This document shows, in pieces, positions 30,799 through 37,408 of a DNA stretch of 64,000 nucleotides. Origin of the DNA: Labilibacter sediminis (lineage in GTDB: Bacteria > Bacteroidota > Bacteroidia > Bacteroidales > Marinilabiliaceae); assembly GCF_005877885.1 (NCBI RefSeq), contig NZ_VCHY01000002.1, positions 62,001-126,000 of the forward strand. The letters are read 5' to 3'. The notes beneath the pieces are model-generated. The model was given only the letters and a program-made list of their open reading frames with translations. It was not told where the DNA came from and ran no database searches. A program made the translations under genes and the position numbers. The first letter of the stretch is position 1; every line of letters begins with the position of its first letter.

Positions 30799-31632
30799 AT
30801 GAAGAATATCAAAGTTGGCCAACAAGAGTTTGGCAAAGACAAGCTGTTTTTAATCGCTGGTCCTTGTGTGATTGAAGAAGAATCTATCATGATGGAAACA
30901 GCTGAAAAGCTAAAAAAAATGGCTGAAAAGCTTGACCTTCCTTTTATTTTCAAATCTTCTTACATAAAAGATAACAGAAGCTCGGTAGAATTTTACCCTG
31001 GCCCGGGATTAGAAGAGGGTCTTAAAATACTTGAAAAAGTTAAAAACACTTTTGATGTGCCTGTTATTTCAGATGTTCATATGGCATCTGAAGTTAAAGC
31101 CGCTGCCGAAGTACTGGACGTTATTCAAATACCAGCTTACCTGTGTATGCAAACCTCATTGGTAACCGAAGCTGCTAAAACACAAAAGGCCATCAATATT
31201 AAACATGGTCAGTTTTTAGCTCCGGAAAACATGATTAAGCCGGTACAAAAAATTGAACATTTCGGTAACAAAAACATCATGGTAACCGAACGTGGTTATG
31301 CCTTTGGATACAATGATTTAATTGTTGACCCTCGTAGTTTTTATGAACTGCGTCAAACCGGATATCCTGTAGTATTCGACATCACCCACTGTATTCGCAA
31401 ATATGGTATTCCAAGTTCTGATCCAAGCGGTGGAACTCGTCAGTACCTGGGACCTATTGCCCGAGCTGGAGTTGCAGCAGGTGTTGATGGTATTTTTATT
31501 GAAGCACACCCTGATTGTAAAAATGCACTTTGTGATGCTGCCAGTCAATATCCATTAGATCAATTAGAGGAATTCTTAAAACCTTTAATTGACATCCATA
31601 ACATAGAAAAACAAAATAGAACTGAAGTTTAA
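30799..31632 (+). CDS. kdsA: 3-deoxy-8-phosphooctulonate (Kdo-8-P) synthase
   Basis: A 277-residue TIM-barrel enzyme condensing phosphoenolpyruvate and D-arabinose 5-phosphate to Kdo-8-phosphate in the cytosol. Signatures are LFLIAGPCVIEEE (PEP site), FKSSYIKDNRSS, GPGLEEGLKIL, IQIPAYLCMQTSL, NIKHGQFLAPENM and IFIEAHPDC. Asn in KDNRSS and the lack of the usual Cys in the metal-ligand segment (FLIAGPCV has Cys) should be weighed if metal dependence matters. It is the first gene of the Kdo8N cluster, 25 bases before the transaldolase-CBS gene. Confidence 0.97.
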   Translation: MKNIKVGQQEFGKDKLFLIAGPCVIEEESIMMETAEKLKKMAEKLDLPFIFKSSYIKDNRSSVEFYPGPGLEEGLKILEKVKNTFDVPVISDVHMASEVKAAAEVLDVIQIPAYLCMQTSLVTEAAKTQKAINIKHGQFLAPENMIKPVQKIEHFGNKNIMVTERGYAFGYNDLIVDPRSFYELRQTGYPVVFDITHCIRKYGIPSSDPSGGTRQYLGPIARAGVAAGVDGIFIEAHPDCKNALCDAASQYPLDQLEEFLKPLIDIHNIEKQNRTEV

Positions 31633-31657: not shown

Positions 31658-32680
31658 ATGGAATTATATCTTGATTCTGCTGACATTAATGAAATTGAAG
31701 AAGCATTTAAGTTAGGTTTTATTGATGGTTTAACTACCACACCAACTTTTATGCACAGACACGGCATTACCGACATTGATGGTGCAATTGTAAAGCTCTC
31801 AAAAATGGTGCCTGTACTAATGATTGAGGCACTTGGAGACACTGCTGATGAAATTGTAGCAGAGGCAAAAAGATTGTTGAGTCTTGGCTTAGACAAAAAG
31901 AAAACGGTTTTTAAAATTCCTGCTTCTTTAATAGCTGCTGAAGCCTGTAAAAAGCTTCGTAACGAAGGTATGATGGTCAACATTCATTTGGTATACAATA
32001 TTCAACAAGCATACATGGCTATGGCAGCCGGTGCTACATATGTTTGCGTATTGGTAGGACGTATGCAAGATCAAGGATACGATGCATTAAAATTAGTTGA
32101 TGATTGTGTGAAATTGGTAGATAAATACAACTATGACACAAAAATCATGTTCTCTTCGGTTCGTCACCCTGAGCACATTAAAAATGCCATCGAAATTGGT
32201 GCACAAAACATCACAATTCCTTGGAATATTATGAAAAATCTTAACAACAATAACTTTACCGAGATAGGTACACAACAGTTTGTGAATCACACTCGCCAAA
32301 TGACAATGCTTGTTGGAGAAGTTGTTGGAAGCAAAAACCCAACCATTGGTCTTGATGCAAAAGTTACTGATGCTACTGTTGAAATGACTAAATATGGTAC
32401 AGGTGCTGTTTCTGTAGTTGATGCCATCGGAAATTTGGTCGGAATTTTTACCGATGGTGATTTGCGTCGTCACATGAACATTGATGGTGAGAAAATATTA
32501 ACCATGAAAATGAGTGACTTTGAAATGAAAAAACCAATCACCGTAGACATTGATGACAAACTACATACTGCGGTAGGTATTTTTAAAGACAAGCAAATAG
32601 ACAACATTATTGCAGTAAGCAATGATAAACCAGCTGGTATGCTTGATGTTCAAGATCTTGTTAAATTAGAAATTCTTTAA
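31658..32680 (+). CDS. Transaldolase/fructose-6-phosphate aldolase-like domain fused to a CBS pair
   Basis: 340 residues. Residues 1-~215 align along their length with E. coli FsaA (MELYLDSADI, TTTPTF, KIPAS, SVRHPEH). Asp6, Thr26, the Schiff-base Lys (Lys86), Arg135 and Ser167 are kept. The residue at FsaA Asn28 is Thr28, Thr109 is His110, Ala129 is Cys130 and Tyr131 is Leu132, so the substrate pocket differs. Residues about 235-340 are two CBS domains with GTGAVSVVD, FTDGDLRRHM and ITVDIDDKLHTAV, the arrangement at the C-terminus of arabinose-5-phosphate isomerase KdsD, whose SIS domain is absent here. It sits between kdsA and kdnA, where an arabinose-5-phosphate source would be expected. 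FSA enzymes can join glycolaldehyde and glyceraldehyde-3-phosphate to arabinose-5-phosphate, which makes that role attractive, but this is inference. Confidence 0.85.
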   Translation: MELYLDSADINEIEEAFKLGFIDGLTTTPTFMHRHGITDIDGAIVKLSKMVPVLMIEALGDTADEIVAEAKRLLSLGLDKKKTVFKIPASLIAAEACKKLRNEGMMVNIHLVYNIQQAYMAMAAGATYVCVLVGRMQDQGYDALKLVDDCVKLVDKYNYDTKIMFSSVRHPEHIKNAIEIGAQNITIPWNIMKNLNNNNFTEIGTQQFVNHTRQMTMLVGEVVGSKNPTIGLDAKVTDATVEMTKYGTGAVSVVDAIGNLVGIFTDGDLRRHMNIDGEKILTMKMSDFEMKKPITVDIDDKLHTAVGIFKDKQIDNIIAVSNDKPAGMLDVQDLVKLEIL

Positions 32681-32848: not shown

Positions 32849-34030
32849 ATGCCGGGTACAGAATTATTTGGTAAAGAAGAAAAAGAACAAGTAATGGAAG
32901 TCCTTGAAACAGGAATTCTGTTTAGATATAACCACGACGAACAAAGAAAAGGAATTTGGAAAGCCAAGCAGTTTGAGCAAGAGTTTGCAGAATATCATGG
33001 TGCTAAACATTGCCATATGGTATCAAGTGGTACTGCTGCGGATTCCGTTTCATTAGCATCAGTTGGAGTTGGCGCCGGAGATGAAGTTATTGTTCCTCCA
33101 TTTACTTTTATTGCTCCGATTGAAGCAGTTATCAACTGTGGTGCAGTTCCGGTATTTGCAGAGATAGACGAAACGCTTTGTCTAACAGCAGCATCTATTG
33201 AGGCAGCCATCACACCAAAAACTAAAGCTGTAATGTTGGTTCACATGGTTGGAGCCATGGCTCAAATCGATGAAATTGTTGAAGTTTGTGAAAAGCACAA
33301 CATTATTTTAATTGAAGATACTGCGCAAGCTTTAGGTGGTTCTTACAAAGGAAAAATGTTGGGTACCTTTGGTAAGGTAGCTTGTTACTCATTCGACTTT
33401 TTTAAATTAATTACTGCCGGAGAAGGTGGTGCTGTTTTAACTAACGATGAGTGCGTTTATACTACCGCTCATACATGGTCTGATCATGGTCACAGCCATA
33501 TCGGTAACAACCGTGGTGCTGAAGATCACCCAATTTTAGGAACCAACTACCGTATCAGTGAGCTTCACGCAGCTGTAGGTTTGGCACAGTTCCGCAAAAT
33601 TGACTATATCCTTGAAAAACTTCGTGCGAACAAAAAAGTGTTGAAAGATTACCTAAAGAAATTCCCTCAGGTTGTGTTTCGCAATGTACCAGACGAAGAA
33701 GGAGATTCTGCTACAGTATTAAACTTCTTTTTACCAACTCAGGAAGAAGCGAAAAAAGCTTGTGCTGAATTAGGTGCAGAAGGCGTTGCTGCTGCTTATT
33801 GGTTTGATAACAATTATCACTTCATTAAAAACTGGGATCACTTAAAAGAGTGTAAAGTTGCAGGTCCTGTTGGAATGCAGTTTTTAGATAAACCTCAAGA
33901 CTATAACAACCTTGAATTGCCAAAATCATATGATTTAATAGGTCGTTTAGTATCTATTAACATGAATATTGAAATGTCTCCTGAGCAATTGGAAGCTATT
34001 TGTAAAACTTTCGATAAAGTTTTAGGATAA
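32849..34030 (+). CDS. kdnA: PLP aminotransferase, KdnA-like (Kdo8N synthesis)
   Basis: A 393-residue DegT/DnrJ/EryC1/StrS-type sugar aminotransferase. The catalytic lysine is Lys186 in SFDFFKLITAGEGG. Other fold-I marks are SSGTAADSVSLAS (phosphate binding), EVIVPPFTFIAPIEAV, LIEDTAQALGGSYKGK and NYRISELHAAVGLAQF. In Shewanella, KdnA converts the 8-aldehyde of Kdo to 8-amino-3,8-dideoxy-Kdo. The pairing here with an Fe-dependent alcohol dehydrogenase, between kdsA and kdsB, is the basis for the KdnA call. By sequence alone it could be a nucleotide-sugar aminotransferase. Confidence 0.8.
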   Translation: MPGTELFGKEEKEQVMEVLETGILFRYNHDEQRKGIWKAKQFEQEFAEYHGAKHCHMVSSGTAADSVSLASVGVGAGDEVIVPPFTFIAPIEAVINCGAVPVFAEIDETLCLTAASIEAAITPKTKAVMLVHMVGAMAQIDEIVEVCEKHNIILIEDTAQALGGSYKGKMLGTFGKVACYSFDFFKLITAGEGGAVLTNDECVYTTAHTWSDHGHSHIGNNRGAEDHPILGTNYRISELHAAVGLAQFRKIDYILEKLRANKKVLKDYLKKFPQVVFRNVPDEEGDSATVLNFFLPTQEEAKKACAELGAEGVAAAYWFDNNYHFIKNWDHLKECKVAGPVGMQFLDKPQDYNNLELPKSYDLIGRLVSINMNIEMSPEQLEAICKTFDKVLG

Positions 34031-34043
34031 TAATATCAAGTAT

Positions 34044-34086
34044 AGCCATAAGTTAGGTATTTTCTGCACCCAACTTGTGGCTTTTT
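34044..34086 (+). terminator. Hairpin between kdnA and kdnB
   Basis: AGCCATAAGTTAGG (34044-34057) pairs with CCCAACTTGTGGCT (34069-34082) with one mismatch and one wobble, followed by TTTT. It is a plausible terminator or processing site 13 bases after the kdnA stop. Confidence 0.6.
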
Positions 34087-34132
34087 ATTAATTAGTAGTT
34101 GATGGATGAAATTAGGTTTCTAAATCATGTAA

Positions 34133-34174
34133 ATCAACTTTTAACTTTCAACTTTTAACTTTCAACTAATTATC
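34133..34174. repeat. 7-nt-period repeat abutting the kdnB start codon
   Basis: Six contiguous heptamers: ATCAACT, TTTAACT, TTCAACT, TTTAACT, TTCAACT, AATTATC. The last base touches the ATG at 34175. The kdsB repeat (35341-35382) has the same length, the same phase to the ATG and a near-identical last unit (TATTATC). Confidence 0.75.
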
Positions 34175-35263
34175 ATGCTATACGACTTTAGAAGTTTTGT
34201 AAACCCTGGTCATTACGCTTTTGGTAAAGGAAACCTTAAGCACTTGGGTGAATTAATTGATAGAAGAAAAAATGAAACCAATGATTGGACTGTGTTTATG
34301 ATTGATCATTTTTTCCAGGATAAAAAAGAAACACTGGATCGACTTCCTATCGGAGAAAAAGACCTTGTGTTTTTTATCGATACCAAAGATGAACCTAAAA
34401 CTACCCTGGTAAACTCATATCGAGATCAGATTTTAGCTCACCAGTCTACTCTTCCTGCTGTTGTGGTTGGAATGGGTGGTGGTACTACCATGGACTACGC
34501 TAAGGCAACTGGTTTAATGGTAACAAACCCTGGCGACTCAAAGGATTATCAAGGATTAGATAAAATTAAAAACGAAGGTATTTATACCATCGTTATTCCT
34601 ACTGTTTCAGGAACCGGAGCAGAGGTTTCTATGACTGCAGTATTAAGCGGTCCGGAAAAGAAGTTAGGTATCAAGTGCGATTATACTATACCTAACGAGG
34701 TGCTTTTCGATCCTGAATTATTGGCTACAGTATCTGATGAAGATCGTTTCTTCACAGGAATGGATAACTATATTCACAACGTAGAGTCTTTAAACGGAAC
34801 GTGGATTACATCAATGGGTAAAGCATTTGCTGAAAAGTCAAATGAAATTTGTGTGGATGTTTTCATGAACAAATATCCTGATCGCCTTGAGGCTGATGAA
34901 AAAATGATGGTAGCTTCTTTAATGGGTGGAAATAGTATTACTTACGCTCAGGTAGGAGTATGTCATGCCATGTCGTACGGATTGGCAGTTATTTTAGGCA
35001 CTCATCACGGAGTTGCAAACTGTATCGCCTTTAATCAGTTAGAGAAATATTATCCTGAAGGATATAAGCAATTCAAAGAAATGCAGGCTTTTCAAGGTGT
35101 TGAAATACCTACTGGCATAACAGCAGAGTGTACCGAAGAGCAATTTGATCAAATGGTTGAAGTAGCCTGGGCAAATGAGCATATGTGGAACAATGCCTTT
35201 GGACCGGATTGGGAAAACCACATCTCAAAAGCTGAGTTAAAAGAAATTTATACGAGAATGTAA
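34175..35263 (+). CDS. kdnB: Iron-containing alcohol dehydrogenase, KdnB-like (Kdo8N synthesis)
   Basis: A 362-residue group III (Fe-dependent) alcohol dehydrogenase. The NAD(P) loop is GMGGGTTMDYAKA (99-111), the second nucleotide motif is PTVSGTGAEVS, and likely metal ligands are Asp197, His201, His264 and His278 (MDNYIHNVES, VCHAMSYGL, LGTHHGVAN). In Shewanella, KdnB oxidises the C8 hydroxyl of Kdo so that KdnA can aminate it. The position after the aminotransferase and before kdsB in a kds cluster supports this role. Other fermentative Fe-ADH roles cannot be excluded from the fold, but the context argues against them. Confidence 0.8.
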   Translation: MLYDFRSFVNPGHYAFGKGNLKHLGELIDRRKNETNDWTVFMIDHFFQDKKETLDRLPIGEKDLVFFIDTKDEPKTTLVNSYRDQILAHQSTLPAVVVGMGGGTTMDYAKATGLMVTNPGDSKDYQGLDKIKNEGIYTIVIPTVSGTGAEVSMTAVLSGPEKKLGIKCDYTIPNEVLFDPELLATVSDEDRFFTGMDNYIHNVESLNGTWITSMGKAFAEKSNEICVDVFMNKYPDRLEADEKMMVASLMGGNSITYAQVGVCHAMSYGLAVILGTHHGVANCIAFNQLEKYYPEGYKQFKEMQAFQGVEIPTGITAECTEEQFDQMVEVAWANEHMWNNAFGPDWENHISKAELKEIYTRM

Positions 35264-35340: not shown

Positions 35341-35382
35341 TTAATTCTTTTGTCTTTCATCTTTTGTCTTTTATCTATTATC
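35341..35382. repeat. 7-nt-period repeat abutting the kdsB start codon
   Basis: Six heptamers TTAATTC, TTTTGTC, TTTCATC, TTTTGTC, TTTTATC, TATTATC end directly before ATG 35383. Part of it also pairs with upstream sequence: AAAGATGAAAGA (35329-35340) is the exact reverse complement of 35353-35364, so a 12-bp hairpin can form just upstream of the start codon. Confidence 0.75.
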
Positions 35383-36138
35383 ATGAACATTGTAGGAATC
35401 ATACCTAGTAGATATAGTTCGAGCCGCTTACCAGGTAAACCTTTAGCTATGATTGGTGATAAACCAATGGTGCAGTGGGTTTACGAGAACTGTAAAAAGG
35501 GGCTTGAGCATGTTTTTGTTGCCACAGATGATGAGCGAATTGTAAAAGCCGTTGAAGCTTTTGGCGGAAAAGCTGTAATGACCAGTATTGATCATACCAG
35601 CGGAACTGATCGTTGTGCCGAAGCTGCTGAAAAAATTCAGGAGAAATACGGTATTTCTACCGATGTAGTCATCAACATCCAGGGCGACGAACCATTTTTC
35701 GAAGCAGAACAACTTAACGACATTAAAGCCTGCTTTGAAAATCCGGACACACAAATTGCAACCTTAATTCAGGAAGCCAAAGATCTGGATCAGGTATTAA
35801 GCCAAAGCGAAGTAAAAGTTGTTCTTAACAATTGGGGCGAAGGTATTTATTTTAGCCGTTCTCCTATCCCGTTTTTAAGAAATGTGGATCAAAAAGATTG
35901 GATGAAAACCCAAACTTTTTATCGTCACCTGGGAATATATGCCTACCGCATGGATATCTTAAAACAAATTGTTAAGCTGGAGCAATCATCACTCGAAAAA
36001 GCTGAATCGTTAGAGCAACTACGCTGGATTGAAAACGGATTTCCGGTTACCTGTGTTGTAACTGATTTAGAAGAAACCATGTGCGTAGATACTCCTGAAG
36101 ATTTAATCAAAGCCAATAAATTCATACAATCTTTATAA
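35383..36138 (+). CDS. kdsB: CMP-Kdo (3-deoxy-manno-octulosonate) cytidylyltransferase
   Basis: A 251-residue enzyme activating Kdo, or here probably Kdo8N, with CTP before transfer to lipid A. I choose ATG 35383 because MNIVGIIPSRYSSSRLPGKPL is the family N-terminus and the extra upstream codons (from 35350) fall within the heptad repeat. Signatures are the Rossmann/pyrophosphorylase loop PSRYSSSRLPGKPL, VINIQGDEPFFEAEQL, YFSRSPIPFLRN, RHLGIYAYR and ESLEQLRWIENGF. The end is 1 base from the start of the kdsC-like gene. Shewanella KdsB prefers Kdo8N; whether this one does cannot be read from the sequence. Confidence 0.93.
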   Translation: MNIVGIIPSRYSSSRLPGKPLAMIGDKPMVQWVYENCKKGLEHVFVATDDERIVKAVEAFGGKAVMTSIDHTSGTDRCAEAAEKIQEKYGISTDVVINIQGDEPFFEAEQLNDIKACFENPDTQIATLIQEAKDLDQVLSQSEVKVVLNNWGEGIYFSRSPIPFLRNVDQKDWMKTQTFYRHLGIYAYRMDILKQIVKLEQSSLEKAESLEQLRWIENGFPVTCVVTDLEETMCVDTPEDLIKANKFIQSL

Positions 36139-36139
36139 T

Positions 36140-36814
36140 ATGAATATACAAGAGCAATTTGAAAAAATTGGAGGAACCTTTATCACTCCTGAAATTGAGT
36201 TAAGGAAGAAGCTTTCTAAAATTAAAGCTTATATATTCGATTGGGATGGCGTTTTTAACAACGGATCAAAAATAGGCGATGAAGGCAGTAACTTTTCGGA
36301 ACCGGATGCTATGGGACTTAACATGCTAAAGCTCGATTACTGGTTACGTGAAGGCAAAGTTCCTTACACCTTTATTGTCACCGGAGAAGAAAATAAAAGC
36401 GCACAATTCTTGGCGCAACGCGAGCATATGAATGCCGCTTTTTATCGCTGTAAATTTAAGGTAAAAGCACTTGAGCGCATCTGTATTAACTATCAGCTAA
36501 CGCCTGATGAAATTGCTTTTGTTTTTGATGATATTTTAGATGTGGAACTGGCACGTTCTTGTGGTGTCAGCTTTCAGATTAGCCGAAATGCCAATCCAAT
36601 TTTTAATCAGTATCTCGAAGACAATAAGAGCTGTGATTACCGAACTGGTCATACCGGTGGTAATTTTGGAGTAAGAGAAGTTAGCGAACTAATTATTGGA
36701 CTAACCGGAAGCTTGCCAAATGCCATTGAAACACGCATTGAATTCACAGGCGATTACACAAAATATCTTAACGACAGAGATCTAATTAAAACAGTTTGCG
36801 AACCTGTTGTTTAA
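36140..36814 (+). CDS. HAD-family phosphatase, KdsC-like (Kdo-8-P phosphatase)
   Basis: 224 residues. Motif I is FDWDGVFNNG (nucleophile Asp34, acid/base Asp36). Motif II Thr is in FIVTGEEN, motif III Lys is in KFKVKALE, and motif IV is VFDDILDVELA. This is the compact C0 HAD plan of KdsC, which removes phosphate from Kdo-8-phosphate. It is about 40 residues longer than typical KdsC owing to an N-terminal extension and a C-terminal tail (ETRIEFTGDYTKYLNDRDLIKT). It follows kdsB by 1 base and is the last gene of the cluster, with a strong terminator after it. Confidence 0.85.
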   Translation: MNIQEQFEKIGGTFITPEIELRKKLSKIKAYIFDWDGVFNNGSKIGDEGSNFSEPDAMGLNMLKLDYWLREGKVPYTFIVTGEENKSAQFLAQREHMNAAFYRCKFKVKALERICINYQLTPDEIAFVFDDILDVELARSCGVSFQISRNANPIFNQYLEDNKSCDYRTGHTGGNFGVREVSELIIGLTGSLPNAIETRIEFTGDYTKYLNDRDLIKTVCEPVV

Positions 36815-37033: not shown

Positions 37034-37408
37034 ATGAATAAGATGAAAGAGATCGGTACAAAATCAGTTAACGGACATATGTTTACATGTAGCAAATGCG
37101 ATAAAATTCATTTTGAGTTTAATCAGATTGGCATTGACTTCTCTTCAATTGATATTTTAAGAGATTTTTATAATTATTTAGTAAAAATTGATGGCGTTGA
37201 GTTTGAAACTCTTAATAAAAAGACAACTTATCAACGGAAAATTCACATTCCATTTCCGAATACGGCCATCAAACTCTTATTATCGCTAAATGATCTTAAC
37301 GAACTGATAACTCTTATACATAAATTCATTCATAAATATAATTTAAAAGTACAGAAGAGAGTTTTTATGCGAAAGTTATCGAACATTTCGTCCAAACAGT
37401 TGAATTAA
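37034..37408 (+). CDS. Small conserved-looking protein of unknown function with a CxxC motif
   Basis: 124 residues. A single CxxC (FTCSKCDKIHFEFNQIGIDF) sits near the N-terminus, followed by a helical region with HIPFPNTAIKLLLSLNDLNELITLIHKFI. The style resembles short Bacteroidota-specific proteins in which a zinc-knuckle-like start precedes a helical body. I do not recognise a named family with confidence. The start may be Met1 or Met4. It is isolated, with a terminator upstream and 178 bases before pflB. Confidence 0.7.
   Translation: MNKMKEIGTKSVNGHMFTCSKCDKIHFEFNQIGIDFSSIDILRDFYNYLVKIDGVEFETLNKKTTYQRKIHIPFPNTAIKLLLSLNDLNELITLIHKFIHKYNLKVQKRVFMRKLSNISSKQLN

Follow-up and report, generated by a model that had tools for sequence, protein, structure and literature searches.

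The window analysed here, a stretch of 64,000 nucleotides from contig NZ_VCHY01000002.1 of Labilibacter sediminis, contains a run of forward-strand genes related to Kdo, an outer-membrane building block that is part of most lipopolysaccharides. Kdo-8-phosphate synthase is encoded by kdsA (positions 30799 to 31632; 338.8 bits with TIGR01362, cut-off 314), which by its position in the tree described below belongs to a clade found with the gene that follows. This next gene starts 25 bases after the end of kdsA, spans positions 31658 to 32680 on the forward strand and joins a transaldolase/FSA-type barrel to a CBS pair; we refer to it and its product as TAL-CBS. Downstream, all on the same strand, lie homologues of kdnA and kdnB, kdsB and a gene for a KdsC-like phosphatase. 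The kdnA homologue (8-amino-Kdo transaminase; 32849 to 34030) has PDB entry 5k8b as its best hit (E 4e-139). The kdnB homologue (Kdo 8-oxidase, of the Fe-ADH type; 34175 to 35263) matches 5k8c (E 4.1e-98) and, slightly better, 3rf7 (1.3e-102), which is named only as an iron-containing alcohol dehydrogenase. Close matches to solved KdnA and KdnB, our criterion for a Kdo8N pathway, are thus present; the roles of both proteins are taken from the PDB names and from PMC5125639. The CMP-Kdo synthetase gene kdsB (35383 to 36138; TIGR00466, 216.7 bits, cut-off 155.2) was read from its ATG, the listed open reading frame beginning at a TTG at 35350. The HAD phosphatase encoded at 36140 to 36814 has no Pfam match and remains below the cut-off in all four NCBIfam models that matched, with E-values of about 1e-11 for the KdsC and KDN-9-P phosphatase models; it is a divergent phosphatase of the KdsC type that often lies near TAL-CBS. 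The genome also encodes a protein with PF04413, the N-terminal domain of Kdo transferases. A small open reading frame with a DUF6686 match (37034 to 37408) separates the Kdo genes from a pyruvate formate-lyase-like pair, the latter named by eye, and the order is the same in three relatives.

TAL-CBS is a single open frame of 340 codons, encoding 340 amino acids. Residues 3-202 (31664 to 32263) match PF00923 (TAL_FSA) with an E-value of 2.2e-34 and 119.6 bits, against a Pfam cut-off of 27, while PF00571 (CBS) matches two stretches in the last ~120 residues (whole-protein E 3.9e-14, the better stretch being 219-273). The CBS pair extends over about residues 217-335 (32306 to 32662) and includes the motif FTDGDLRRHM at residues 264-273. 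An AlphaFold2 model built from 58 sequences (mean pLDDT 92.1) retrieved small transaldolases as top Foldseek matches, the nearest fold being the Thermoplasma acidophilum transaldolase 3s0c (E 4.4e-20, TMt 0.92). With the Pfam cut-off passed and a barrel fold, TAL-CBS is a member of the TAL_FSA superfamily. Membership of the FSA family by score is not met, as the FSA equivalog model TIGR00875 gives 156.5 bits, under its cut-off of 245.95. Likewise, the N-terminal SIS domain that defines KdsD is lacking, TAL_FSA and CBS being the only domains given by Pfam for this protein, and among six proteins of the cluster scanned with Pfam, not one carries a SIS domain. Two features of the original prediction, namely one frame combining an FsaA-like domain with a CBS pair carrying FTDGDLRRHM, and a cluster without SIS domain or kdsD gene, are hereby confirmed, the latter for the six proteins scanned. 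The joining of the two domains is not due to chance, because it recurs in all 80 loci retained from the genome scan (the best 80 of 491 relatives; 59-93% identity, residues 1 to at least 333 matched) and in 7 of 392 genomes of the phylum. On plasmids, no full-length TAL-CBS was found, none of the 76 matching records covering 80% of the query.

The CBS pair resembles most closely those of the arabinose-5-phosphate isomerases. The best NCBIfam models for this part were KpsF (TIGR00393, part match; 4.3e-15), GutQ (6.3e-12) and KdsD (2.9e-11), followed by PrdR (3.4e-8), and a PDB sequence search returned two arabinose-5-phosphate isomerases, 4o9k (7.7e-14) and 3k2v (3.1e-9), ahead of 2yzq (3.8e-8). 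When the CBS part was modelled by itself (pLDDT 89.2), a fold search ranked the same isomerases first (4o9k, 1.3e-12; 3k2v, 2.2e-12), the first non-isomerase being 3fhm (6.3e-11). As CBS folds are all alike, more weight was given to the sequence ranking than to the fold ranking. The KdsD/KpsF criterion of a C-terminal CBS pair of the arabinose-5-phosphate isomerase kind is met, in agreement with the predicted likeness to the pair behind the SIS domain of KdsD. A separate alignment, A3, comprises the window sequence and 37 of the 80 loci. The CBS pairs of KdsD bind CMP-Kdo, and by inference the pair in TAL-CBS would probably allow a late product, for instance CMP-Kdo, to control the enzyme by feedback.

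To describe the active site, an alignment of 58 members (A2; the window sequence and 57 of the 80 loci) was compared with 24 plain FSA/transaldolase sequences (L005 and L014-L036), which are not a random sample but the best-scoring ones in the phylum search, including the window genome's own. D6, E57, K86, R135, S167 and R169 are invariant in all 58 TAL-CBS sequences and are matched by the plain sequences, apart from one Q at position 57 and one K at position 169. Lys86 (31913 to 31915, forward strand), aligned to 3s0c, is the expected Schiff-base lysine. T28, H110, L132, F165 and S166 are equally invariant in TAL-CBS (58/58), whereas the 24 plain sequences have N (24) at position 28, T (24) at 110, F (23) or Y (1) at 132, A (19) or V (5) at 165 and A (24) at 166; at position 130, 53 TAL-CBS sequences have C and five have T, versus S in 23 and A in one of the plain ones. 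His110, encoded at 31985 to 31987 on the forward strand, thus takes the place of a Thr found in FSA and transaldolases. The earlier residue assignments made by eye (D6, K86 and S167 kept; T at 28, H at 110, C at 130, L at 132) were correct throughout.

According to PMC13259622, FSA relies on Lys85 for covalent catalysis and on Tyr131 as proton shuttle, a water molecule is held by Gln59-Thr109-Tyr131, and dihydroxyacetone is stabilised by Asn28 and Ala129. The phosphoryl-binding residues of TalB are two Arg and one Ser (PMC3962226), and the role of the active-site Asp is based on PMC7092467. Measured against these features, TAL-CBS has the Schiff-base lysine (K86 in 58/58) and has neither the Tyr131 shuttle nor the water triad (L132, H110 and E57 in 58/58). 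The transaldolase set Glu60-Thr110-Phe132 (Thermoplasma numbers) is not met either, as the Glu is kept and the Thr and Phe are replaced by His and Leu, respectively. Judged from aligned residues, TAL-CBS retains the phosphate-binding end and the lysine for imine formation, while the donor pocket and proton shuttle are rebuilt with a new invariant His. This combination would fit an imine on an aldehyde carbon, as needed for D-arabinose 5-phosphate (A5P), and not on a ketone, although this is inferred from sequence alone.

The record titles of the 80 retained loci name Marinilabiliaceae, Cytophagales, Flammeovirgaceae, Chitinophagaceae and Desulfobacterales, among others. Near TAL-CBS in these loci (the best 80 of 491), KdsA is found in 62, the KdsC-like HAD phosphatase in 65, a KdnA-like protein in 30, and KdsB and a KdnB-like protein in 27 each. 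KdsA was not seen in 18 and the phosphatase not in 15 of the fetched stretches, some of which are short contigs. Among the genes sought, KdsA was the one lying up to 600 bases upstream of TAL-CBS in 50 of the 73 loci with room, and the phosphatase the one downstream in 53 of 79. Moreover, the distances among TAL-CBS sequences correlate with those among KdsA (r 0.90, 64 rows), KdsB (r 0.93, 29 rows) and phosphatase sequences (r 0.72, 69 rows), as do those of KdsA with those of the phosphatase (r 0.58, 56 rows); none of 500 permutations reached as high a value in any of the four comparisons. Together with the KdsA clade, this linkage indicates a cassette of a particular KdsA, TAL-CBS and a particular HAD phosphatase that does not depend on kdnA and kdnB. 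Because TAL-CBS is near kdsA and the phosphatase gene more often than near kdnA or kdnB in the 80 loci, it should act before Kdo. The presence of kdnA and kdnB homologues in the same gene run of the window could suggest instead that TAL-CBS acts late, in the formation of 8-amino-Kdo (Kdo8N) together with KdnA and KdnB; such relatives, however, occur near it in only 30 and 27 of the 80 loci, compared with 62 for KdsA, so that a Kdo8N-specific role was rejected and a late function is barely conceivable.

Two observations concern individual loci or subsets. Roughly one in three of the 80 TAL-CBS loci has homologues of kdnA and kdnB, suggesting that 8-amino-Kdo may be common in such Bacteroidota; with an identity of just 26%, the KdnA-like match in L055 is probably no relative. 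In Labilibacter marinus, a second TAL-CBS copy (L047:9962-11023), 82% identical to that of the window, is preceded by a plain FSA and a transketolase and followed by a phosphohexomutase and an FBPase, a context that fits a pentose-phosphate substrate and perhaps a catabolic role; a record of the same strain (L043) has the Kdo-cluster copy.

This additional copy beside transketolase and FSA, as well as the transaldolase fold and Schiff-base lysine, would be expected if TAL-CBS were an ordinary transaldolase or FSA under CBS control and another enzyme stood in for the lost KdsD. We consider this improbable, given that the residues for donor binding and proton shuttling (roles according to PMC13259622) are replaced, that the gene is linked to kdsA and that its presence is opposite to that of KdsD. 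The window genome, furthermore, has two other matches to the transaldolase part elsewhere, on account of which we also rejected TAL-CBS as its only transaldolase.

The first step towards Kdo is taken to depend on the SIS isomerase KdsD. A SIS search of the whole window genome (completeness 100, contamination 2.47) yielded only a 614-amino-acid frame with two SIS domains, which by its shape is GlmS (no family search names it), and a GmhA that scores above the equivalog cut-off of PRK00414, and the KpsF model had no match at 1e-30. A kdsD hidden in this genome was rejected on the basis of the SIS search. The first of the two findings that together would have spoken against the prediction, a normal kdsD elsewhere in the same genome, was thus looked for with both searches and not encountered.

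In a sample of 392 genomes of the phylum, TAL-CBS was detected in 7 (all at E 1.3e-118 or better, well ahead of the plain FSA that follows at 4.5e-40), KdsA in 283 and KpsF/KdsD in 275. At most 5-6 candidates per genome were scored in these searches, and the three lists were compared by reading, with totals that agree. All seven carriers are KdsA-positive. Among KdsA-positive genomes, KdsD is found in 0 of 7 carriers versus 272 of 276 non-carriers (Fisher 1.2e-11). The seven carriers bear five family labels (f1, f5, f11, f13, f18), of which f5, f11, f13 and f18 also include KdsD-positive genomes. In the class of a Desulfobacterales carrier (147 genomes, completeness not stated), TAL-CBS was detected in 6, KdsA in 139 and KpsF in 129; here KdsD is present in 1 of 6 KdsA-positive carriers (G438) versus 126 of 133 others (Fisher 1.1e-5). 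Exclusion between KdsD and TAL-CBS has a p-value of 3e-16 when the phylum and this class are pooled, with the proviso that the Fisher values count related genomes as independent.

All candidate SIS matches in the seven phylum carriers were scored. They are frames of 157-692 amino acids, GlmS-like, of GmhA length or other, and no KpsF match was obtained at 1e-30, on which ground a hidden SIS-type KdsD lacking the CBS pair was rejected. The strongest odd one, a frame of 282 amino acids in G366, was judged by eye to be an HTH-SIS regulator of the RpiR type; the remaining frames were judged on length only. A KdsD without CBS pair is known from Bacteroides fragilis, and in the window's order, G230 has a KpsF match of 2.0e-44 with a SIS frame of only 204 amino acids, that is a KdsD lacking the CBS pair.

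Absence of KdsD has other causes too, since 11 KdsA-positive genomes have neither KdsD nor TAL-CBS at the thresholds used, four in the phylum (G023, G200, G268, G284) and seven in the Desulfobacterales-carrier class (G478, G497, G525, G548, G560, G564, G573). These may reflect assembly gaps or yet another A5P route. Three further phylum genomes (G114, G348, G354) have KdsD without a KdsA match.

A set of 50 carrier genomes was composed of L120 and 49 loci taken by rank (L043-L092, leaving out L047, which shares its record set with L043); four of them (G411, G423, G430, G438) are also in the Desulfobacterales-carrier class. No KpsF/KdsD above cut-off was found in 48 of the 50, the exceptions being G438 and G441 (Chryseolinea serpens). 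KpsF matches at 1e-15 occur in 44 of the 50, and in all but these two genomes only at CBS positions of the model (about 149-267). KdsA was found in 48 of the 50 (45 above cut-off) and not in G409 and G410, in which TAL-CBS lies on short contigs, L061 (G409) having a KdsA piece at the contig edge. Where the TAL-CBS locus itself is without KdsA, as in G402, G404, G405 and G436, KdsA can be located elsewhere in the genome. In addition to TAL-CBS and KdsD, G441 has a second KdsA which falls in the KdsD-type clade, so that this organism may run two Kdo routes. G438, with TAL-CBS, a full KdsD and a single KdsA, is a real exception to the exclusion. The expected anticorrelation between TAL-CBS and SIS-type kdsD therefore holds in the phylum sample, the Desulfobacterales-carrier class and the 50 carrier genomes, with two carriers that hold KdsD.

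The KdsA proteins of carriers were compared with 20 KdsA of the KdsD kind, taken from 18 genomes chosen from the KpsF-positive list and supplemented with second copies from G441 and G440. Matches weaker than 1e-40 or shorter than 220 query residues were dropped, L135 and L136 were omitted as repeats of L086 and L085, and L038 and L119 are identical rows. In the resulting tree, the 64 carrier KdsA lie on one side of a branch with a support of 100/100, a split that holds even where a KdsD-kind sequence shares its family label or its genome with a carrier sequence. Position 117 is M in 64 of 64 carrier sequences versus Arg in 20 of 20 of the KdsD kind; further differences (carrier/KdsD kind) are H136/K, R200/Q, Y202/P and D58/A, as well as an altered loop after the THC/THS motif. 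K57, N59, R60, D246 and H197, which we take to be part of the substrate-binding set, are common to both groups. G440 (L134) and G441 (L133) possess two KdsA each, one per clade, G440 without KdsD above cut-off. The KdsA of L049, from a record titled Chlorobiota bacterium, nests inside the Marinilabiliaceae, for which reason this is likely a misnamed or misbinned contig.

The altered KdsA of carriers, which departs from other KdsA at positions that are otherwise fixed, may point to another substrate, as far as can be read from sequence. TAL-CBS would then make a different aldose phosphate, from which the cassette KdsA would form a Kdo-like but different 3-deoxy sugar acid; the separate, fully supported branch with its substitutions and loop change and a phosphatase that is likewise divergent would agree with this. 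On the other hand, KdsA and KdsB score above their equivalog cut-offs, relatives of KdnA and KdnB as well as a Kdo-transferase-type gene are present in the genome, and the presumed KdsA substrate residues are common to both groups. We regard a different product as unlikely: A5P remains the most likely one, because K57, N59, R60 and D246, which are among the A5P-binding residues of KdsA, are shared.

Architecture, linkage, near mutual exclusion with KdsD and a conserved, altered active site are all observed. The enzymatic activity is inferred, and on balance we consider it probable that TAL-CBS is a non-homologous replacement for KdsD, making an aldose phosphate, most likely A5P, for the adjoining KdsA, which would join it to PEP. 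The original prediction of a non-homologous, CBS-regulated substitute for KdsD, or of an aldolase making a related aldose phosphate, is supported by the exclusion tests, but not without reservation, as two of 50 carriers hold KdsD.

As a mechanism, we propose that Lys86 would form an imine at C1, the aldehyde carbon, of an aldopentose 5-phosphate whose phosphate group would be bound by Arg135, Ser167 and Arg169. The ketone-donor positions Asn28 and Ala129 are replaced, and His110 would act in proton transfer in place of the lost Tyr/Phe-Thr-water system; these assignments are likewise inferred. Through the same enamine, A5P could arise either by an aldol addition with glycolaldehyde as donor and glyceraldehyde 3-phosphate (G3P) as acceptor or by C2-epimerisation of ribose 5-phosphate, each of which we advance only tentatively. 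The aldol reaction would be of the type catalysed by deoxyribose-phosphate aldolase, a class I aldolase of a different family with an aldehyde donor and G3P as acceptor. Cells are not obviously rich in free glycolaldehyde, which is why the C2-epimerase and an enediol isomerase were weighed too, and no source of it is visible in the cluster, a point that counts against the proposed replacement of KdsD. A transaldolase fold can make A5P, since FsaA has been used as an A5P aldolase with glycolaldehyde and G3P (PMC9947464).

As a third route to A5P within the replacement of KdsD, an enediol isomerase using His110 and Glu57 without a Schiff base could convert ribulose 5-phosphate. This is the substrate of KdsD, and the new invariant His replaces a Thr involved in holding the catalytic water (PMC13259622); yet the invariance of Lys86 and Asp6 (58/58) is hard to explain without imine chemistry, leaving this route rather doubtful.

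In its most specific form, which is no more than one possibility, the replacement of KdsD by TAL-CBS would involve a Schiff-base aldose-phosphate 2-epimerase that converts ribose 5-phosphate to A5P by way of a Lys86 C1-imine and enamine, with His110 as acid-base and a CBS sensor of the kind found in the displaced KdsD. Together with a KdsA clade and a phosphatase of its own, it would constitute a second Kdo precursor cassette in Bacteroidota and Desulfobacterales, probably moved laterally between the two groups. We know of no such 2-epimerase reaction in the transaldolase family.

Compared with known systems, TAL-CBS shares with KdsD/GutQ/KpsF (TIGR00393) the kind of CBS pair, the expected product A5P and a complementary presence and absence, but it is without SIS and has another catalytic fold with a conserved Schiff-base lysine. 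With FsaA and TalC-MipB (TIGR00875) it has in common the barrel fold, Lys85/86, Asp6 and the phosphate Arg/Ser, whereas Asn28, Thr109, Ala129 and Tyr131 of FsaA are all replaced and a C-terminal CBS pair is added. The small transaldolases of Thermoplasma and Thermotoga (3s0c, 1vpx) are the best matches in fold and sequence and agree in the Glu at the Glu60 position and in Arg169; they differ in that TAL-CBS has His for Thr110, Cys (or Thr) for Ser130, Leu for Phe132 and Thr for Asn28, is fused to CBS and sits in Kdo clusters. The Kdo8N genes kdnA and kdnB, known from Shewanella, have homologues in the window at 32849-35263, but most of the 80 TAL-CBS loci lack them nearby. TAL-CBS, which fails the defining tests of KdsD, FSA and transaldolase, is accordingly best described as a putative new enzyme type for a known job, the KdsD step, because SIS is absent, the NCBIfam cut-offs are missed and catalytic residues are replaced. 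No published description of such a protein was found, going by titles and the start of abstracts among the matches listed, nor any paper combining arabinose-5-phosphate, transaldolase and CBS domain; most subscription papers were outside the scope of both searches.

These bacteria seem to have exchanged KdsD for an unrelated, re-tooled transaldolase with a KdsD-like control domain, and the genomes of several Bacteroidota families and of Desulfobacterales point to a second, unrelated enzyme that is used for the KdsD step. If this is true, a gap in the Kdo pathway of the carrier genomes would be filled, one control domain would have been paired with two unrelated catalytic domains, and a natural enzyme for the synthesis of A5P-type sugars would be at hand.
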